Part shown: positions 6,099-64,000 of the stretch, piece by piece | Numbering within the stretch: the stretch's first letter is position 1 | Layout of the letters: every line of letters begins with the position of its first letter | Assembly (NCBI RefSeq): GCF_007990525.1 | Contig: NZ_AP019823.1 | Coordinates: 682,001 to 746,000 of the forward strand | Source: Leptotrichia hofstadii | Lineage (GTDB): Bacteria > Fusobacteriota > Fusobacteriia > Fusobacteriales > Leptotrichiaceae | Length of the DNA: 64,000 bases | Direction of reading: 5' to 3' | The notes under the pieces: model-generated | What the model was told of the DNA's origin: nothing | Databases searched by the model: none | The model's input: only the letters and a program-made list of their open reading frames with translations | Made by a program: the position numbers and the translations under genes

Positions 6099-8564
6099 AT
6101 GAAAATTGACAAAGCTGAATTAAAGGACAATATTCTTAGGGAACTGAGAAGGCAATATGGGAAAACTCTTGAAGAAGCTCATGAATTTGAGTTATATAAT
6201 GCGATTTCAAAAGTAGCTTTGGACTACGCAATGGAAAAATGGTACAATACTAAAAAAACTTATGCTAAGAAACAGGTAAAACAAACGTACTATTTTTCAG
6301 CAGAATTCCTAATGGGAAGATTTTTGGGGAATAATCTGATTAATTTGCAAATTAATGACGTTATAAAAGAAACATTGAATGAATTAGGCGTAGATATTAA
6401 CAAAATTGAAGACCGTGAGATGGATGCAGGACTTGGAAATGGAGGGCTTGGAAGACTTGCTGCATGTTTTCTAGATTCGCTTGCAACATTGGCATTACCA
6501 GGACATGGATATGGACTTAGATACAAATACGGAATGTTTGAGCAAAAAATCGAAAATGGGTTCCAAATGGAATATCCAGATGACTGGACAAAATATGGGG
6601 ATCCTTGGTCAATCAAAAGAATGGACAGAGTATTTGAAGTAAAATTTGGCGGGCAAATTGAGGTTCATCGTGATGAATTTGGGAAAGAATACTTTAAACG
6701 TGTAAATACGGAAACAGTTCATGCTGTACCTTATGATGTGCCAGTTATCGGTTATGGAAACGATACTGTAAATACGTTGAGATTGTGGGAAGCAAGATCT
6801 CCTGAAGGATTTGACTTAAAATTATTCAATGATCAGACTTATTTACAAGCTTCTGCAAAAGCAGTTCAAGCTGAAGATATTTCAAGAGTACTGTATCCAA
6901 ATGATACTGAAAAAGATGGAAAACAATTAAGATTAAAACAGCAGTTCTTCTTTACATCGGCTTCATTGCAAGATATTATCAGAAGATATAAATCTGTATT
7001 TGGAAACGATTTTTCTAAATTTGCAGACAAAGTTGCAATTCAGTTAAATGACACTCACCCAGTAGTTGCAATTCCTGAATTGATGAGAATTTTTCTGGAT
7101 AAGGAAAAATTAGGATGGGATGAAGCTTGGAATATTTGTAAAAATGTATTTGCTTACACAAACCATACAATCTTGTCAGAAGCATTGGAAAAATGGGATA
7201 TTTCACTATTCCAGCCATTACTTCCAAGAATTTATCAAATTATCGAAGAAATCAATAGAAGATTTGTCGCAGAATTACAGCAAAAATATCCAGGAGATTG
7301 GGAAAGAATCAACAAAATGTCAATCATTGGAAATGGACAAGTTAGAATGGCATGGCTTGCAATCGTAGGATCGCACAAAGTAAACGGAGTTGCGGCACTG
7401 CATACAGAAATTCTTAAAAACAGTGAATTAAAAGAATGGAATGAATTATATCCTGAAAAATTCCTAAATAAAACAAATGGAATTACTCAAAGAAGATGGC
7501 TATTAAAAGCAAATCCTGAATTAGCAGCGTTAATTACTGAGTTAATTGGAGACAAGTGGGTTACAGACTTATATGAACTTAAAAAATTGGAGCAATACTT
7601 AGATGATGACAACATATTAAATAGAGTTTCTGAAATCAAATTGCATAATAAGGAAAGATTGGCTAAATATATAAAAGATACTACAGGAATCGAAGTAAAT
7701 CCTCATTCTATCTTTGATATTCAAGTTAAGAGACTGCACGAGTATAAAAGACAGCTATTAAATGTACTTCATATTATGGACCTGTACAACAGATTAAAAG
7801 AAAATCCGTATTTGGATGTTGAGCCAAGAACATTTATCTTTGGAGCAAAATCAGCTGCTGGATACAGACGTGCAAAAGGAATTATCAAATTAATCAATGC
7901 CGTTGCAGAAAAAGTAAATAACGACAGCGACATTAACGGAAAAATCAAAGTTGTATTCCTTGAAAACTACAGAGTTTCACTTGCAGAAAAAATATTTCCA
8001 TCAGCAGATGTATCAGAACAAATATCTACAGCAAGTAAGGAAGCTTCTGGAACTGGTAATATGAAATTTATGCTAAACGGTGCATTAACTCTTGGAACAA
8101 TGGATGGAGCAAATGTGGAAATCGTTGAAGAAGTTGGACTTGACAATGCCTTTATCTTTGGACTTTCTGCACAGGAAGTTGAAAATTATCAAGCACATGG
8201 AGGGTATAATCCATTTGACGAATATAACAGCGTAGAAGGACTTAAAAAAGTTGTGGATCAGTTAGGTGACGGAACTTATGACGATAATCATACAGGAATC
8301 TTCAGAGAACTACAAAATTCATTATTATACGGAGTAGATGGTTCTCGTCCGGATGTATATTTCCTATTAAAAGATTTCGCATCGTATAGAGAAGCTCAAG
8401 ATAGGCTTCAAAATGCCTTCAAAGATAAAAGAGAATGGACTAGAAAAGCTCTTAAAAATATTGCAAATGCAGGTAAATTCAGTTCAGACAGAACAATTGC
8501 CGAATATGCAAAAGAAATTTGGAACATTGAGCCAGTTGAAGTTCAAGATTATATAGAAGATTAA
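6099..8564 (+). CDS. glgP: Glycogen/starch (alpha-glucan) phosphorylase
   Basis: Cytoplasmic GT35 enzyme that phosphorolyses alpha-1,4-glucan ends to glucose-1-phosphate with pyridoxal phosphate. I start it at the ATG at 6099 because AGGAGG lies 5 bases upstream; an upstream in-frame GTG (6072) has no ribosome site. The resulting 821 residues match the family length. Hallmarks are 'DAGLGNGGLGRLAACFLDSLA' in the N-terminal half, the 'NDTHP' segment, and the PLP-site block 'EASGTGNMKFMLNGA' with the lysine near residue 655. No other glycogen gene is next to it, so it stands alone here, between an IS30 element and its own terminator. Confidence 0.96.
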   Translation: MKIDKAELKDNILRELRRQYGKTLEEAHEFELYNAISKVALDYAMEKWYNTKKTYAKKQVKQTYYFSAEFLMGRFLGNNLINLQINDVIKETLNELGVDINKIEDREMDAGLGNGGLGRLAACFLDSLATLALPGHGYGLRYKYGMFEQKIENGFQMEYPDDWTKYGDPWSIKRMDRVFEVKFGGQIEVHRDEFGKEYFKRVNTETVHAVPYDVPVIGYGNDTVNTLRLWEARSPEGFDLKLFNDQTYLQASAKAVQAEDISRVLYPNDTEKDGKQLRLKQQFFFTSASLQDIIRRYKSVFGNDFSKFADKVAIQLNDTHPVVAIPELMRIFLDKEKLGWDEAWNICKNVFAYTNHTILSEALEKWDISLFQPLLPRIYQIIEEINRRFVAELQQKYPGDWERINKMSIIGNGQVRMAWLAIVGSHKVNGVAALHTEILKNSELKEWNELYPEKFLNKTNGITQRRWLLKANPELAALITELIGDKWVTDLYELKKLEQYLDDDNILNRVSEIKLHNKERLAKYIKDTTGIEVNPHSIFDIQVKRLHEYKRQLLNVLHIMDLYNRLKENPYLDVEPRTFIFGAKSAAGYRRAKGIIKLINAVAEKVNNDSDINGKIKVVFLENYRVSLAEKIFPSADVSEQISTASKEASGTGNMKFMLNGALTLGTMDGANVEIVEEVGLDNAFIFGLSAQEVENYQAHGGYNPFDEYNSVEGLKKVVDQLGDGTYDDNHTGIFRELQNSLLYGVDGSRPDVYFLLKDFASYREAQDRLQNAFKDKREWTRKALKNIANAGKFSSDRTIAEYAKEIWNIEPVEVQDYIED

Positions 8565-8650
8565 TTTTCTTATGTAAAAAACAGCTCTAAAATTACCAAT
8601 ACTGAAGTAAAGTTAATTCTGAAAAAATTTAGACAGGCTGGAAAATAAGG

Positions 8651-8677
8651 ACTGCTTCATTATGAAGCAGTTTTTTT
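8651..8677 (+). terminator. Rho-independent terminator downstream of glgP
   Basis: ACTGCTTCAT / TATGAAGCAGT forms a nearly loop-less perfect stem followed by seven T. Confidence 0.9.
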
Positions 8678-9007
8678 AGTTATATTCTGTTAACCTGTTC
8701 GATAATTATATAATACTAAATCCCATTTCAAAAATAGAAAAAACTATTATTAATCATAATACTTATAAATAAAATTATAAAAGTCTTTAAGACGGATACT
8801 TAATGATTAAATTTAATTAAAAGAATATTTTAACAGCCACATAGATTATATAATAGTATAATCTTCTAAAAAAGACTCTAATTCCATGGATTTTCTGATT
8901 TCTGTTACTTGAATGGGAAATAGTATTATTTATGCTGAACTGATAAAAGTGGGTAATACTAGAATATAGACTTAATAGTTATAATTTTTTAATGACTTTG
9001 TTATAGT
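8678..9007. other. Non-coding spacer
   Basis: AT-rich spacer between the glgP terminator and the nitroreductase promoter. I see no open frame with a ribosome site, no repeat and no RNA structure in it. Confidence 0.5.
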
Positions 9008-11502: not shown

Positions 11503-13101
11503 ATGGCACAGGATATGAAAAATTATCTGAAATTAGATCTTGAAAAAATTGAGAAAATGACTCAAATAAAAAAAGATTATATTGAAGGAAAGACTGACTT
11601 TGAGGCTACTAAAAAATTAATAAAAGAGAATTTTGACAAGATGACGGCAAGCGAATTTGCTTATTCAGAGCAGAAAATTAAAGAACTTGGATTTGATGAT
11701 AATACGGTTCATGATAAGATGAATGATGTTTTAGGGCTTTTTGAGGATATTATTGTGAAGGATGAATTTGACTTGCCTGAGGGGCATCCGATAAATACGT
11801 ATATTTTGGAAAATGAAGCAGCTAGAAAGCTGATTGCGGAAATGAAAGAAGAGTTTGGGAAAAAGTTTATAAAGAACAGATGGCTTGAACTTTATGAAAA
11901 ATTATCTCAATTTAACCCCACACATCTTGCAAGAAAACAGCATCAATTATTTTCAATATTAGAGAAAAAAGGGTTTGACCGTCCATCAAGAATAATGTGG
12001 AGCTTTGATAATAACGTGAGAGATAGCATAAGTGAAGCATATAAATTACTTGAAAATGATAAAATTGAAGAATTTTTGGAAAAACAGGAAAATGTGTGGG
12101 AATTGACGCTTGATATTATGCATAAGGAAGAAGAAGTGCTTTTTCCAACTTCGATGAAAATGATTAGTGAAGAAGAATTTAAGCAAATGCGTGCAGGAGA
12201 TGACGAAATTGGATATTTCCTGATTGATAAGCCAACTGGATTTTATCCTGAAAATAATGAGAAACAAGATGACAAGAGTATTCAGAGCATAAAAGAGGAA
12301 ACTGTAAAATTAGAAAACACTATTGAAAATAATCAAAATGCTGGAAACTTTATGAATGACCTTGCAAGTCTTATGGCAAAATATAATATGGGAAGCCAAA
12401 ATAATGAAAATGAAGTTTTTGATGTGAAGCAGGGGAAATTAACGCTTGAACAGATTAATCTTATTTTTCAGCATATGCCTGTGGACTTGTCTTTTGTGGA
12501 TGAAAATGAAATTGTGAAATTCTATACGGACACTAAACATAGGGTTTTCCCAAGAAGTGCAGGAGTTATAGGGCGTGATGTTAAAAACTGCCATCCAAGA
12601 GAAAGCGTCAGTTCGGTACTGGAAATAATAGACGCTTTTAGAAAAGGGGAGCAGGACGAGATTGATTTTTGGCTAGAAATGCGTGGAAAATTCATTTATA
12701 TCTATTATGTGGCTGTAAGAGATGAAAATGGAGTGTTTAAAGGTGTTCTGGAAATGATGCAGGATGTTACTAGAATTAGAAGTCTTACAGGAGAAAGAAA
12801 ACTTGTGACTTGGGAAAATAAAGTTAAAGATGAAAAAAAAGAAGAAGCTGGTGAAGTATTTACAAGCAAATATAATTTGACTGCAAAAACTGTAATAGGC
12901 GATATTGTTAAAAAATATCCGTATATTAAAGAATATATGCCATTAATTTCTCCAGAATATAAACGTCTTTTAGATCCTGTTCAATATATGATGATGTCTA
13001 AAATAGCGACTCTTCAAATGATTGCAATGCGTGGGGAACTGGAACTTGATTATTTGATCATGATGATCGAGGCTAAAATTGACGAGGAAGAGAATAAATA
13101 G
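11503..13101 (+). CDS. DUF438 protein with hemerythrin-like and PAS domains
   Basis: A cytoplasmic multidomain protein of 532 residues. The N-terminal DUF438 region (about 10-85) is followed by a hemerythrin-like HHE helical domain (about 85-235, with 'PEGHPINTYILENEA' and the HKEEEVLFP motif). Next come a charged linker, a PAS domain (about 315-435, 'GVIGRDVKNCHP'), and a C-terminal DUF1858-type segment ('YPYIKEYMPLISPEYKRLLDP'). Such proteins in anaerobes are thought to sense or bind O2, NO or iron; that role is inferred. The start at 11503 is chosen because AAGGTGG sits 5 bases upstream. It lies directly before the iron/haem locus with its own terminator. Confidence 0.85.
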   Translation: MAQDMKNYLKLDLEKIEKMTQIKKDYIEGKTDFEATKKLIKENFDKMTASEFAYSEQKIKELGFDDNTVHDKMNDVLGLFEDIIVKDEFDLPEGHPINTYILENEAARKLIAEMKEEFGKKFIKNRWLELYEKLSQFNPTHLARKQHQLFSILEKKGFDRPSRIMWSFDNNVRDSISEAYKLLENDKIEEFLEKQENVWELTLDIMHKEEEVLFPTSMKMISEEEFKQMRAGDDEIGYFLIDKPTGFYPENNEKQDDKSIQSIKEETVKLENTIENNQNAGNFMNDLASLMAKYNMGSQNNENEVFDVKQGKLTLEQINLIFQHMPVDLSFVDENEIVKFYTDTKHRVFPRSAGVIGRDVKNCHPRESVSSVLEIIDAFRKGEQDEIDFWLEMRGKFIYIYYVAVRDENGVFKGVLEMMQDVTRIRSLTGERKLVTWENKVKDEKKEEAGEVFTSKYNLTAKTVIGDIVKKYPYIKEYMPLISPEYKRLLDPVQYMMMSKIATLQMIAMRGELELDYLIMMIEAKIDEEENK

Positions 13102-51344: not shown

Positions 51345-51821
51345 ATGGAATTATATGAAAGAATAATACCAAAAACTTCTTCAACAAGTTATATATCTGG
51401 ATGGGAAGCATTGAATATTCCTGATGAAAATAGAAATACTGCTGATTGGCATCCAAGAACTTATTTATTTTCTTATGATAAAGACAAGGCAATAAATCTG
51501 TATAACACGACAAATGTTTTAGGAAATTCTGGAATAAAGAAAAGAACAATAGATTATCCAAGTAAAAGGGAAGTATATATTGCTAATTTTCCAAGAGCGA
51601 TTGCAGATTTGGTATTAACAATGAAGGATTATCAGTTACCTTCGCTTCATAACTGTTGCAGTGATTTTTTAAATGAAGATGAAACGGAACAGCTTTATCA
51701 GTATCTGAGAAGTATAAAGGATAATCCAAGAGTGGATGAGTTTCTTAAATATGAATTTACTGTAAGATATTTTAATGATAAGGAGCTTTATGATGAAAGA
51801 GTGGCAAAAGGACAGAATTGA
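51345..51821 (+). CDS. Probable antitoxin partner of the AbiEii-like toxin
   Basis: 158 residues, soluble. 'GWEALNIPDENRNTADWHPRTYLF' (split near residue 18) and a C-terminal helix region; no helix-turn-helix is visible, unlike the canonical AbiEi antitoxin. Its end overlaps the toxin start by about 30 bp, typical of an antitoxin-toxin pair. It may bind the toxin directly. GAGGTG precedes the ATG. Confidence 0.6.
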   Translation: MELYERIIPKTSSTSYISGWEALNIPDENRNTADWHPRTYLFSYDKDKAINLYNTTNVLGNSGIKKRTIDYPSKREVYIANFPRAIADLVLTMKDYQLPSLHNCCSDFLNEDETEQLYQYLRSIKDNPRVDEFLKYEFTVRYFNDKELYDERVAKGQN

Positions 51822-52503
51822 CATAATAAAAAAAATTTTACCAAAATTAGGTGAAAATTATGTTTTAAAAGGTGGAACAGCTTTATTATTATATTACGGA
51901 TTAGATCGTTTTTCAGAAGATGTTGATTTGGATTCAATTAGTGGGAATATGAATATACTGAATAAATTAAAAACTATTGGACAGAATAAATGGAATATGA
52001 TCATAAAAAAAGATACAGAAACAGTTTTTAGAGTAATGGTTGATTACGGAGCAACAAATAATTATGGAGATTATCCTTTAAAAATTGAAATTTCTTCCCG
52101 AAATAAAAAATTTTTACAATCTAAAATTTATGATTATAAAAATATTGCAGGAGTTAATGTTTATTCATTAGAGGAAATTTTAAAGATGAAAATAAGAGCA
52201 TTTAATGATAGGGATAAAATAAGAGATTTTTATGATTTGTCCTATTTTTTGAAAAAACAGCCTGAAAAATTTACAAAAGATATGCTGATAGACTTTAAAG
52301 AGCGTATGGATTATAAAAATTTGGATACTTTATCATATTTATTAAAGGAAGAATTTGAAAAAAATGAATTAAAGGATATTTCAAAAAATTCAGAAGAAAT
52401 AGTTTTAGAAACGTATGATAAGATTGAAAATTTAGTTATCAATTATTCTAAAAATAAAAATTTGGAATTAAATTCTGAAAAGAATAAAGAAATGGAAAGA
52501 TAA
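51793..52503 (+). CDS. AbiEii/AbiGii-family nucleotidyltransferase toxin
   Basis: 236 residues. The nucleotidyltransferase core is clear: 'YVLKGGTALLLYYGLDRFSED' at about residues 23-43 followed by VDLDS, giving the GG...D-x-D active site. 'EEILKMKIRAFNDRDKIRDFYDL' (split, near residue 130) is the second family block. AbiE toxins add nucleotides to tRNA and act in phage defence and element maintenance. AAGGAG lies 7 bases before the ATG at 51793 (another ATG is at 51790). Confidence 0.85.
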   Translation: MKEWQKDRIDIIKKILPKLGENYVLKGGTALLLYYGLDRFSEDVDLDSISGNMNILNKLKTIGQNKWNMIIKKDTETVFRVMVDYGATNNYGDYPLKIEISSRNKKFLQSKIYDYKNIAGVNVYSLEEILKMKIRAFNDRDKIRDFYDLSYFLKKQPEKFTKDMLIDFKERMDYKNLDTLSYLLKEEFEKNELKDISKNSEEIVLETYDKIENLVINYSKNKNLELNSEKNKEMER

Positions 52504-58956: not shown

Positions 58957-61029
58957 ATGAAAAAATTAATAATAGCAGAAAAGCCAAGTCTTGCACGTAA
59001 TATTGCAAGTGCATTGAATATCAGGGTTAATAAAGAGGGGTATATGGAAAATGAAAAGTATATTGTTTCTTGGGCTTTTGGACATTTGTTTAAATTAAGG
59101 GATGTTGATGGATATGTTGGAGAAAAAAGGAAATGGAGTGAAGTTAAACTGCCATTTTTCCCTGAAGAGTTTGAATTTGAATTAAAAAATGATTTGGGAA
59201 TAAAGAAACAGTATAAGATATTAAAAAACCTTATTAACAGCAATGAAGTTGATGAGATAGTAAATGCGGGAGATGCAGACAGGGAAGGGCAAATTATAGT
59301 GGATATTATTATCAATGCCATAAAAACTGATAAGAAGATAAAAAGATTGTGGCTTCCTGAACAAACTGAAGAAACCATAAGGAAAGCTGTAAATAATCTT
59401 GAAGATAATTTTAAATATAAAAATTTACATAATGAGGGGCTTGCAAGGACATATATGGACTGGCTTTTGGGAATTAATCTTACTAGATATATTTCATTAA
59501 AGGCAAATACATTTTTTCCAGTCGGACGTGTACTCATTCCAGTTATAAAATATATTTACGATAAAGATTTAGCGATTAAAAATTTTATTCCTGAAAAATA
59601 TTTTACTATTGAAAATGAAACTATGTGTAATGGAGCTTTGTTAAAACTTGTCTGTGATAAAAAATACAACCTTTTAGAACTTGAAAAAGCCAAAAGCTAT
59701 TCAAATGAGTTAAATAAATATAAAGGAATTGTAAAGGATATAACTGAAAAGGAAATTATTTTTAATCCTCCAAAACTTTTTTCACTTTCAAAATTACAAA
59801 GTAAATTATCAAAGGAAAAGAAAATGAGTTTTGCAAAATCGCTTGAAATTATACAGAAACTCTATGAAAAAGGGTATATTACATATCCTAGAACAAATAC
59901 AGAGTATCTTGCTGAAGAGGAGAAAGAAAAAGTAAAAGAACTTATAAACTTATATTATGGTCATGAATTAGAATTTAAGGACAATAAAAAAATATTTGAT
60001 AGTAGCAAGATTGAGAGCCACAGCGCAATAATGCCGACTTTAAAAATTCCTGATATGAATAGTTTGGATTTGGAAGAAAAGATAATTTTTGAAACAATAA
60101 GAAATAGATTTATTTCTAACTTTTTAAAGGAGAAAACGATAATTAATCAAACAGAAGTAAAAATTGTTGTGGGAAATGAAGTTTTTAACTTGAAAGGAAA
60201 ATCAGTAAAACAGGAAGGATTTTTAAAATATGAAAATCAGAAGATAGATAATAAGTTGCCATATTTTGAAATTAATCAAAAAATTGATGTTGATTTTAAA
60301 GTTGTTGATAAATTAACCGTTCCTCCTAAAAAAGTTACTGAGGAAAATTTGAGTAATTATTTAAAAAACCCTTTTAGAAAAGAAAAAAATCAAGAAAATG
60401 AGGACGATACACAAGAATATAGAGAAATAATGAAAGGTGTAGAGATTGGGACGGAGGCGACTAGAACAGGGATAATTGAGAATGCTAAGAAATATGGATA
60501 TATTACTTCTGAAAAACAGAATTTTAGTATAACTGAAAAAGGAATAAAGTTAATTGAACTGCTGGATTTGCTCCATATTAATCTTTATGCAGAAAAGACT
60601 GTTGAGTTTTCTATGCTTCAGAAAGATATTTATAATAACAGAAAAACAGTAGATGATATTATTGAAAAAACTAAAAGTGAGTTACAAAATATAATAAATC
60701 GAGATGCAGAAGTTGAAAAACTTGAAAAAGAAATGGAAGTTATTGGAAAATGTCCTAAATGTAACAGTAATGTTTATGAGAACAGTAAAAGTTACTATTG
60801 CAGTAATTATAAGAAGGGATGTAAAACATCTCTTTGGAAAGAAGCAAGTTATTTTGGACAAAAAATAAAGATAAGTAAGGATAATGCAAAAAAATTATTA
60901 AGAGGGGAACAGGTTGTGTTTAAGATAAAAAGTAAAAGTGGAAAGGAATATAATGCACATTTTGGAATAGAGATAAATGGAGATTATTTGAACTTGCAAA
61001 GAAAGGATTTTATAAAAATAGAAAAATGA
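58957..61029 (+). CDS. topB: Type IA DNA topoisomerase III
   Basis: 690 residues. TOPRIM domain with 'IIAEKPSLARNIASAL' at residues 4-19 and D-x-D-x-E in 'NAGDADREGQIIV' near residue 107. Catalytic Tyr in 'YITYPRTNTEYL' near residue 309. C-terminal single zinc ribbon (C-x2-C near residue 600, then a second Cys pair). Element-borne TopB enzymes (TraE in RP4) untangle DNA during replication or transfer. Confidence 0.95.
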   Translation: MKKLIIAEKPSLARNIASALNIRVNKEGYMENEKYIVSWAFGHLFKLRDVDGYVGEKRKWSEVKLPFFPEEFEFELKNDLGIKKQYKILKNLINSNEVDEIVNAGDADREGQIIVDIIINAIKTDKKIKRLWLPEQTEETIRKAVNNLEDNFKYKNLHNEGLARTYMDWLLGINLTRYISLKANTFFPVGRVLIPVIKYIYDKDLAIKNFIPEKYFTIENETMCNGALLKLVCDKKYNLLELEKAKSYSNELNKYKGIVKDITEKEIIFNPPKLFSLSKLQSKLSKEKKMSFAKSLEIIQKLYEKGYITYPRTNTEYLAEEEKEKVKELINLYYGHELEFKDNKKIFDSSKIESHSAIMPTLKIPDMNSLDLEEKIIFETIRNRFISNFLKEKTIINQTEVKIVVGNEVFNLKGKSVKQEGFLKYENQKIDNKLPYFEINQKIDVDFKVVDKLTVPPKKVTEENLSNYLKNPFRKEKNQENEDDTQEYREIMKGVEIGTEATRTGIIENAKKYGYITSEKQNFSITEKGIKLIELLDLLHINLYAEKTVEFSMLQKDIYNNRKTVDDIIEKTKSELQNIINRDAEVEKLEKEMEVIGKCPKCNSNVYENSKSYYCSNYKKGCKTSLWKEASYFGQKIKISKDNAKKLLRGEQVVFKIKSKSGKEYNAHFGIEINGDYLNLQRKDFIKIEK

Positions 61030-61073: not shown

Positions 61074-64000
61074 ATGGGATATAAAATTCAAAATATATTG
61101 GAAAATGCACATAAAAAAGTAAATGAAGATTTTAGTGAGTATATTAACTATCTTCATGTTATGGGAAATAATTATAAGTATTCTGCAATGGAACAGCTAA
61201 ATATATTTTTTATTCGTCCTGAAGCTGTAGCCTGTGCAGAATATGACTTTTGGAAAGAAAACTTTAACAGAGTTGTGGAAAGAAATCAGAAGGGAATACC
61301 CATATATAATGTAAGGAATGGAAAAAAGAATGTCAGATATATTTTTGACGTTACCCAGACAGTATCTTTGGATAAGAGAAACGATGAAAAACCTAAATTA
61401 TGGGAATTTAATAACAGAACTCATAAAGATGTTTTTGAAAGAATGACGGGAAAATCAGATTTTGAAGAAGCACAGATGGAGCTTATAAATCAGACAATGC
61501 TTGAAAACAGCAAATTAGATACTTTCAACTACAAAGATACAGAAGTTCTTGAAAGTTTTATCAAAAAATCTGTTTTAATAGCACTTGATCAGAGAATGGG
61601 AATTAATAAAAAGGATATATTTAATGAAAAGGAAAAAGAGGTTTATTCCTTGTTTTCAGATTTCAGGACTATGGAATTAATATCATCAGAAATATCCAAT
61701 GTAGCCAAAAAAGTTTTAATTAAAGTAAGCAAAGAAATTCAAAAAATAAATGATGAAACAACTTTAGAACAAAATAGTAAAATTGGATATGAGATAGAAA
61801 ATGAAAAAAATGAGGAGGAATTGGAATATGCTGAAAAAGATGATAGACGGGAAAGAATATCTGATAGAGAACGGAATATATACTCCAGTAGTGAAGCAAA
61901 CATCTTACGAGCAGGCGGGAGGGAATTACAAAATGATACTGCTGGACGAGAAGTTTCAAGTGCTAGTTCCGAATTTAGAGGAAGAAGAATTAAACTTGAG
62001 CAGACTCAACTCTTGGGGACGGGCGAGAATGAAATATTTGGAACAAGAGAAAGCGGAATTTTTGAAAAATCTTCTAATGAAGGGAGAAGTTATGGAACAT
62101 CTATTTTCAATTCAGAAAGAAGTGGAGAAATTTTGGGAGATAGAAAAACCCAAAATGATGAAAACTATGGGATTAACCGAAGAATTAAAAGAAAAAGATC
62201 AAATGGAATGGGTAAGGCTTATGAACAGCCTACTCTCTTCTCTCAGGGAAATAACTTACAATCAGATAATTTACAAATAGAAAATGATAATATAATTACT
62301 CAAAAGAATATTGACGATGTATTAAAATCATACAGTGGAGCAGAAAATATTTATAATTTTTTTCAAGATAACAGTTCAAAGGAAGATAGAATAAAATATT
62401 TGAAATGGGAATACGGAACAGGCGGTTTTTCAATACCTGACCGTGGAGATTTTATTGATGATGCCTTTTATACTTCTAAAAATATGAAGTTATATAAAAA
62501 TCATTTTAGTGCTAATGAAGTTAAGGTAGTTCTGTCTTGGAACAAAATAGAAAAGAGAATACAGGAACTTATAGATGAAAATCAATATTTTATTCCTGAA
62601 AAGGAAACAGAAAATATTATTGAGAATGATGAAATAATATATCCTTATATAGATGAAGAAAATAGTAAAGATAATATTTCTAAAAATTTTAAAATTGCTG
62701 AAGAAATTCAGTCTGAAAAACTGTTACCATCAGAGCGTCTAAACAATAATATCGAAGCTATAAAAGTTTTAAAAAATTTGAAGGAAAGAAAAGCTGCAGA
62801 TGATGAAAAGATAACACTTTCTAAATATGTTGGATGGGGTGGACTAGCTGATGTATTTGATGAAAATAAAGGTGGACAATGGGAAGAAGCAAGAAATTTT
62901 TTAAAAGAAAGTTTGACGCAGGAAGAATATGATAATGCTAAGGCAAGTACATTGACAGCCTTTTATACACCTAAAATAGTAATTGATTCCATTTATAAAG
63001 GAATACAGCAATTTGGATTTGAAGGCGGAAATATTTTAGAGCCAAGTTGTGGTGTGGGAAACTTTATAGGTAATTTGCCTGATGAATTAGAAAACTCCAA
63101 GATATATGGTGTGGAACTAGACAGTATCAGCGGAGATATTGCTAAAAAACTTTATCCTGAAAGTAATATTCAAGTAAAAGGATTTGAAAAAACAGAATTT
63201 TCCAACAATTCATTTGATGTTGTGATAGGAAATGTTCCTTTTGGAAATTTTAAGGTAATGGACAGAGAATATGAAAAGCAGAACTTTATGATACACGACT
63301 ACTTTATTGCAAAATCATTGGATAAAGTGAAAAAAGGTGGAATTATGGCTTTCGTAACTTCTTCTGGAACATTTGATAAAAAGGATGACAGCGTGAGAAG
63401 ATACATTGGAGAAAGAGCGGAACTTCTGGGAGCAGTAAGGCTTCCAAATGATACATTTAAAGGCGTTGCTGGAACTGAAGTAACATCGGATATTATATTT
63501 CTAAAGAAAAGGGAAAATATAAATAAAGATGAGCAGGACTGGTATGCGGTTAAATCTGACTCTGAAGGATTTGTATATAATCAGTATTTTGTGGATAATC
63601 CTAATATGGTTTTGGGGAAAATAGAGGAAGTTAGTGGACGTTTTGGGAGAACATTAACTTGTATGCCAAAAGAAAATAGTAATTTAAAGGATGAATTAGA
63701 ACAAGCAGTTGGGAATATAGAAGGAAGTTATGAAAAAACTCTCGCTGAGGAAAAAGAAACTGTAATTGCTGTTGAAAATGAAGACTATGAAATAAGAAAT
63801 TTTTCATTCTTCAAAAAAGATAACGATATTTATTTTAAAGAAAATAGTGAAATGATATTACAAGATTTATCAGATAGAGATAAGGATAAAATATCAAAAT
63901 ATATAGAACTGACATCTTCGTTAAGGAAAGTTATTCAGATTCAAAAAGATGGGGAAACAGATGATAGATTAAAAATCGAACAGGAAAAACTAAATAGAAT
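61074..64000 (+). CDS. Giant DNA methylase/SNF2-helicase protein of conjugative elements, 3' partial
   Basis: Open from ATG 61074 (TTAGGGGGAAG upstream) to the window end, 975 codons. The N-terminal part (about 1-240) is helical. A polar, low-complexity linker follows (about 250-410). Then an N6-adenine methylase-like domain: 'KYVGWGGLADVF' near residue 583, SAM motif 'ILEPSCGVGNFIGNLP' near residue 660, and catalytic motif 'VIGNVPFGNF' near residue 720, an NVPF variant of NPPF. Related proteins of Tn1549-type elements continue into a helicase of more than 2,000 residues. They may methylate or protect incoming element DNA. Confidence 0.85.
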   Translation, partial: MGYKIQNILENAHKKVNEDFSEYINYLHVMGNNYKYSAMEQLNIFFIRPEAVACAEYDFWKENFNRVVERNQKGIPIYNVRNGKKNVRYIFDVTQTVSLDKRNDEKPKLWEFNNRTHKDVFERMTGKSDFEEAQMELINQTMLENSKLDTFNYKDTEVLESFIKKSVLIALDQRMGINKKDIFNEKEKEVYSLFSDFRTMELISSEISNVAKKVLIKVSKEIQKINDETTLEQNSKIGYEIENEKNEEELEYAEKDDRRERISDRERNIYSSSEANILRAGGRELQNDTAGREVSSASSEFRGRRIKLEQTQLLGTGENEIFGTRESGIFEKSSNEGRSYGTSIFNSERSGEILGDRKTQNDENYGINRRIKRKRSNGMGKAYEQPTLFSQGNNLQSDNLQIENDNIITQKNIDDVLKSYSGAENIYNFFQDNSSKEDRIKYLKWEYGTGGFSIPDRGDFIDDAFYTSKNMKLYKNHFSANEVKVVLSWNKIEKRIQELIDENQYFIPEKETENIIENDEIIYPYIDEENSKDNISKNFKIAEEIQSEKLLPSERLNNNIEAIKVLKNLKERKAADDEKITLSKYVGWGGLADVFDENKGGQWEEARNFLKESLTQEEYDNAKASTLTAFYTPKIVIDSIYKGIQQFGFEGGNILEPSCGVGNFIGNLPDELENSKIYGVELDSISGDIAKKLYPESNIQVKGFEKTEFSNNSFDVVIGNVPFGNFKVMDREYEKQNFMIHDYFIAKSLDKVKKGGIMAFVTSSGTFDKKDDSVRRYIGERAELLGAVRLPNDTFKGVAGTEVTSDIIFLKKRENINKDEQDWYAVKSDSEGFVYNQYFVDNPNMVLGKIEEVSGRFGRTLTCMPKENSNLKDELEQAVGNIEGSYEKTLAEEKETVIAVENEDYEIRNFSFFKKDNDIYFKENSEMILQDLSDRDKDKISKYIELTSSLRKVIQIQKDGETDDRLKIEQEKLNR
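61828..62280 (+). CDS. TnpV-like protein in a second frame inside the methylase/helicase gene
   Basis: A 150-codon frame in +1 relative to the host gene, with GAGGAGG 9 bases before its ATG. The product reads like transposon protein TnpV: 'MIDGKEYLIENG', 'SYEQAGGNY', 'LVPNL', then 'GRARMKYLEQEKAEF', 'LMKGEVMEHLFSIQKEVEKF' and 'KEKDQMEWVRLMNSLLSS', ending in EITYNQIIYK. In the host frame the same bases encode only a polar linker. I therefore think this is a genuine overprinted gene. TnpV function is unknown. Confidence 0.7.
   Translation: MLKKMIDGKEYLIENGIYTPVVKQTSYEQAGGNYKMILLDEKFQVLVPNLEEEELNLSRLNSWGRARMKYLEQEKAEFLKNLLMKGEVMEHLFSIQKEVEKFWEIEKPKMMKTMGLTEELKEKDQMEWVRLMNSLLSSLREITYNQIIYK

Follow-up and report, generated by a model that had tools for sequence, protein, structure and literature searches.

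The right-hand end of the window (the whole 64,000-nucleotide stretch of Leptotrichia hofstadii DNA that was analysed) is a conjugative module with VirB4-, VirB6/TrbL-, VirB10-, VirD4- and VirB11-like open reading frames (ORFs), together with a MobA/L-like relaxase ORF, an NlpC/P60 ORF and a lytic transglycosylase, names that were assigned partly by reading the ORFs. An AbiEii-type toxin gene lies at 51345-52503 within the module (Pfam E 7e-26), and the ORF just upstream of it, which is without a Pfam match, is a possible partner. The features that concern us are a large methylase/helicase gene, here called the host, and a second gene, tnpV, that is embedded within it:

58957-61029, + strand: DNA topoisomerase III, also part of the conjugative module, shortly before the host
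61074-64000 in the window and onward to 67469 (window numbering), + strand: host methylase/helicase gene, 2131 aa
61074-61838, + strand: N-terminal folded domain of the host, ArdC-N-like by position
61812-61818, + strand: GAGGAGG Shine-Dalgarno sequence, 9 nt ahead of the tnpV ATG
61828-62280, + strand: embedded tnpV of 150 codons and a stop, offset by +1 from the host frame
61839-62291, + strand: host residues 256-406, a polar linker, predicted to be disordered, lying over tnpV
63033-63422, + strand: adenine-methylase core of the host

The domain order of the host protein is an N-terminal DNA-binding-like domain, a linker of G/S/E/R/N composition, an Eco57I-type adenine methylase and an SF2/SNF2 helicase. 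The Pfam families Eco57I, Helicase_C and ResIII all match it above their cut-offs; ArdcN was matched only weakly, below the cut-off, in a relative (L021). With its N-terminal DNA-binding-like domain, its methylase-helicase dyad and its conjugative setting the host resembles the "polyvalent proteins" that combine ArdC-N, adenine methylase and SNF2 parts (PMC5512222). The main text of that survey mentions neither TnpV nor overlapping genes.

A first-pass annotation of this DNA had described a 150-codon +1 frame with its own GAGGAGG site and a recognisable TnpV-type product, and both descriptions are borne out: the frame is open from the ATG at 61828 to a stop ending at 62280, and a Pfam profile search puts the product in TnpV (PF14198, 74.7 bits, 47 bits above the cut-off of 27, E 7.4e-21), with an alignment spanning 105 of the 111 profile positions. 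The stop-to-stop frame begins only about 10 codons before this ATG, with an alternative ATG at 61801. The C-terminal motif TExLKxxDxMxWV...MNN...EEIV is present (TEELKEKDQMEWVRLMN...REITYNQIIYK) and aligns with that of standalone and embedded members, and a whole-genome search with the window TnpV found no second copy. The window protein therefore belongs to the same family as TnpV of the Tn4451 family of mobilizable transposons, from which it differs in some respects. Tn4451-type tnpV is a free-standing gene whose other frames are closed, whereas the window copy lies within a second gene. The Tn4451 setting, with tnpV beside a large serine recombinase, does not apply to the window copy, which is about 380 kb from the nearest such recombinase; this concerns the setting and has no bearing on family membership. 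The window clade also has some 40-50 additional residues at the N-terminus that form a beta region.

The nesting is not peculiar to this genome. The best 80 named genome loci by match to the host methylase were sampled, without tnpV as a query, which restricts the sample to nearer relatives of the window host and avoids the bias of a tnpV query; TnpV was detected in them with a profile built in this analysis. It was found in 77 of the 80 loci, in every case in the +1 frame and wholly within a stop-free host frame, at around host residue 250-360 in nearly all and at about 645 where the host is N-terminally extended. The question raised in the first-pass annotation, whether other TnpVs overlap this linker too, can thus be answered in the affirmative, and the same holds for 13 of the 34 full-length TnpVs in 58 further Clostridia genomes, evenly drawn, the other 21 being free-standing. 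Two of the three loci without TnpV (L040 and L073) end at contig ends, as does L101 among the loci that carry it, and only L088 truly lacks tnpV. In L088 and in a viral-contig relative (L116) tnpV is missing and the linker region is roughly 200 residues shorter, which shows that at least one lineage can do without the pair.

A TnpV search in Fusobacteriota found the protein in 9 of 98 genomes, seven of which have it embedded, always in +1. Plasmids of Cohnella, Virgibacillus, Enterococcus faecalis, Listeria, Aerococcus, Anaerococcus and Ruminococcus albus also carry an embedded +1 tnpV, and a plasmid of the gammaproteobacterium Teredinibacter has a weaker embedded match, below the Pfam cut-off (E 3e-4). 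Loci from Haemophilus and Lutibacter (L028 and L086) were left out of any claim of breadth because their contigs may be contaminants. No TnpV was found in more distant hosts from Lactococcus, Alteromonas, Pseudomonas, Rhizobium, E. coli and Vallitalea, and viral contigs searched with the window TnpV gave no relatives. At least two phyla, and probably others, have mobile elements with a tnpV hidden within a methylase/helicase gene. In one Vagococcus host (L254) no embedded TnpV could be detected, but 0.75 kb beyond it, downstream and on the same strand, there is a free TnpV-like gene (12025-12426) that carries a TnpV annotation.

Selection on the two frames can be separated, as in the +1 relation the third base of a host codon serves as the second base of a tnpV codon, and the first base of a host codon as the third base of a tnpV codon. 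In 235 close pairs, which are not mutually independent, substitutions fall at host positions 1, 2 and 3 in proportions of 0.20/0.14/0.66 upstream of the overlap, 0.59/0.22/0.19 inside it and 0.22/0.16/0.62 downstream, both flanks being under ordinary host-frame constraint. A simple site-count estimate made here, with no published program, in which every possible change was classed in both frames, gave dN/dS values in the overlap of 0.16 for tnpV (bootstrap 0.14-0.19) and 1.04 for the host (0.90-1.21) from 31 disjoint pairs. Alternative estimators gave 0.32 and 2.0, which lead to the same conclusion, and in the window lineage tnpV stands at 0.21 (0.13-0.37). Within the overlap purifying selection is strong on tnpV, and the host frame is neutral. 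As the ratio is low for tnpV and close to 1 for the host, TnpV is the protein under selection in this stretch.

This codon-substitution check, which like the profile search had been named with the first-pass annotation as a possible refutation and like it came out in favour, also qualifies its description of tnpV as "overprinted" on the methylase gene: the overlap is real, but the polarity implied may be wrong, with tnpV constrained and the host linker passive today. Which frame is the older is undecided. The host frame nevertheless stays open. All 54 non-redundant embedded copies are free of host-frame stops over tnpV, against 3.7 of the 54 expected from synonymous shuffling of tnpV, whereas 36 of 37 free-standing tnpVs have stops in the equivalent frame (mean 7.3). 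Since the frame is stop-free and constrained on both flanks, we take the host to be one continuous protein with a passive linker.

The same measurements bear on whether the +1 frame might be an incidental by-product of the low-complexity composition of the host, with the Pfam match as an annotation artefact. The host linker is indeed rich in G, S, E and R, and chance long +1 ORFs do occur in some hosts, chiefly those of high GC. When the codons of the window host were shuffled synonymously the tnpV frame remained open in 24 of 1000 shuffles (0-2.1% for seven relatives), but none of the shuffled versions attained the real TnpV profile score (80 bits or less, where the real window scores 145). 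Moreover, a composition effect accounts neither for the shift of the variable position to the third position of tnpV, with its dN/dS of 0.16, nor for the retention of the frame in 43 non-redundant loci whose proteins share about 31% identity on average. We regard this explanation as refuted by the position shift and the dN/dS values.

The predicted structures follow the same division. The AlphaFold model of TnpV has a pLDDT of 89.6, with an N-terminal beta part that belongs to the window clade and helices over residues 62-148. In the model of the host N-terminus the chain is mostly folded to residue 256, falls below a pLDDT of 50 over 256-406 and is folded again beyond. As tnpV spans host codons 252-402, the placement of the gene exactly over a polar low-complexity linker in the first-pass annotation agrees with the prediction. 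This coincidence of predicted order in one frame with predicted disorder in the other would make the shared DNA tolerable for both proteins. The TnpV model has no match among solved structures in the PDB (best E 4.1) or among viral models, and a sequence search of the PDB found no credible TnpV relative. A role as an acidic DNA-mimic was considered and rejected, as embedded TnpVs have a net charge of about -3 and are not strongly acidic.

How the inner frame is translated has to be judged from the DNA alone. A Shine-Dalgarno sequence of at least 6 nt (6-8 nt) precedes a start near the beginning of the conserved domain in 46 of 54 embedded tnpVs, compared with 57 of 3509 (1.6%) control +1-frame ATGs in the same hosts. 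Choosing the best start somewhat inflates the former figure, though not fifty-fold. On this evidence the embedded tnpV meets the expectation of a translation start of its own. The alternative is programmed +1 frameshifting from the N-terminal domain of the host, which would yield a fusion of that domain to TnpV and no free protein. In its favour, the frame relation is constant throughout, and one Anaerococcus octavius locus (L074) holds the N-domain and TnpV in a single 396-aa frame, which may be a sequencing error. Frameshifting gives no reason, however, for strong, properly spaced Shine-Dalgarno sequences ahead of the start in most embedded copies, or for standalone TnpVs whose starts fall at much the same place in the domain, and we think it improbable. 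In the Anaerococcus octavius locus itself (7632-8819) a frameshift joins the two parts, and what is left of the host frame begins with the overlap; whether this reflects a mutation or an error of sequencing is unresolved.

Taken together, the observed conservation, fixed frame and position, selection on the tnpV frame, open host frame and Shine-Dalgarno sites, with the predicted order and disorder, leave us highly confident that tnpV and the methylase/helicase gene are a genuine, old, same-strand and fully nested gene pair from which both proteins are made, although their production is inferred, in the absence of proteomic, ribosome-profiling or genetic data. We propose that both would be read from a single mRNA: ribosomes going straight through would make the host protein of 2000-4000 aa, and others would initiate at the strong internal Shine-Dalgarno sequence and read the +1 frame to give TnpV, a folded protein of 110-150 aa. 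That internal initiation, and not frameshifting, yields TnpV is likewise an inference. Such an overlap would be stable, since an open and disordered linker is all that the host requires there, and selection for amino acids acts on TnpV.

The origin of the arrangement is less clear. A tree of 91 TnpV sequences requires 8 changes between the embedded and free states, 4 of them forced by strong branches, and standalone TnpVs, including the Tn4451 type, fall among the embedded ones; the tree was made by a quick method from a short alignment, is unrooted and is weakly resolved. Distances between hosts and between their embedded TnpVs are correlated (r 0.83, 0 of 5000 permutations), as expected if the two descend together. 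Because the place in the host and the reading frame are the same for every embedded copy, several escapes make a simpler history than several insertions. We therefore put forward, tentatively and as a reading that may well prove wrong, that the TnpV family arose by overprinting where a conjugative methylase/helicase gene encodes its disordered linker, and that it left this gene on several later occasions. If so, the free tnpVs of transposons, integrative mobilizable elements and phages are escapees, and this is a bacterial "gene nursery" with the cradle still visible.

Homologous replacement and an origin by capture are not excluded. In the latter an existing tnpV lay between ardC-like and methylase/helicase genes, and these neighbours became fused through tnpV in its -1 frame, so that it is the linker that was overprinted. 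Capture fits a constrained tnpV over a neutral linker, the linker region shorter by roughly 200 residues in hosts without tnpV, and the Listeria case, in which the ArdC-type part and the SNF2 part are encoded by two genes, the first of which contains tnpV. The standalone TnpVs that fall among embedded ones count against it, as far as the unrooted and weakly resolved tree can be relied on. We give capture a little less than an even chance; it concerns the origin only and is compatible with a nested pair as the present state. On the Listeria plasmid (L258:4756-10806) the two parts are adjoining genes. A Nitratidesulfovibrio locus (L266) was considered as an unfused ancestral arrangement and rejected, as its host frame is open over tnpV too. 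Mobilizable elements described in one paper have a free tnpV and insert into snf2 genes of integrative and conjugative elements.

What TnpV does is also uncertain, and its biochemical function is unknown. From its similarity to lambda Xis it was postulated to be the Xis of Tn4451/Tn6104 (PMC3158075), that is, the excisionase (recombination directionality factor) for the integrase of the element, and several standalone tnpVs do come after a large serine recombinase. The neighbours of free tnpVs are mixed, though (serine recombinase, MobA/L relaxase, topoisomerase, helicase and unrelated genes by Pfam), with other standalone copies following relaxase, topoisomerase or helicase genes. In the window genome the only large-serine-recombinase match is the distant one, and the TnpV model fits no solved fold, the winged-helix fold of known excisionases included. 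TnpX alone is reported to be enough for transposition of Tn4451 (Lyras 2004, as cited in PMC5704250), TnpV not being required for excision. An excisionase thus seems unlikely. What the embedded form always accompanies is the conjugative methylase/helicase gene, and for this reason we favour, with low confidence, an accessory of the transfer or establishment machinery, inferred from that fixed company, with the standalone copies serving mobilizable elements. The near-universal retention of tnpV in the host gene suggests that it serves conjugation and not transposition only.

Well-supported, long-conserved same-strand full gene overlaps are rare in bacteria, and this host gene is carried by widespread mobile elements. 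Overlapping genes of E. coli (PMC4683798, PMC5810103) likewise involve full overlap of two protein-coding genes. As described there, the former is a recently originated orphan and the latter is antiparallel, whereas the tnpV overlap is same-strand, ancient, of a named family and present in nearly all close hosts sampled. We found no report of it in the open literature, most subscription journals being outside the scope of the search. The occurrence of nested and free tnpV copies in many genomes provides a natural test set for two frames that share DNA, and a concrete question of origin.

The nesting also explains systematic damage in public annotation, in which one gene of the pair is usually dropped or cut short by the pipeline. 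The helicase is kept and TnpV lost on Streptococcus suis and Anaerococcus prevotii plasmids; TnpV is kept with a truncated helicase in Monoglobus and with none in Cohnella; and in Aerococcus neither is annotated. Erratic annotation of the pair was seen at L013, L012, L241, L252 and L261.

Other +1 ORFs were met at comparable sites. A Streptomyces ORF at the equivalent place was rejected as TnpV, with no Pfam or hhalign support. Campylobacter plasmids (L263:6345-6842, L271:2717-3211 and L270:4270-4794) carry a different +1 ORF of 165-175 aa over the polar N-terminal tail of the methylase/helicase, which is not TnpV by Pfam or hhalign. The C. jejuni and C. fetus versions are homologous (34% identity), and this ORF may be another nested gene at a site of the same type.
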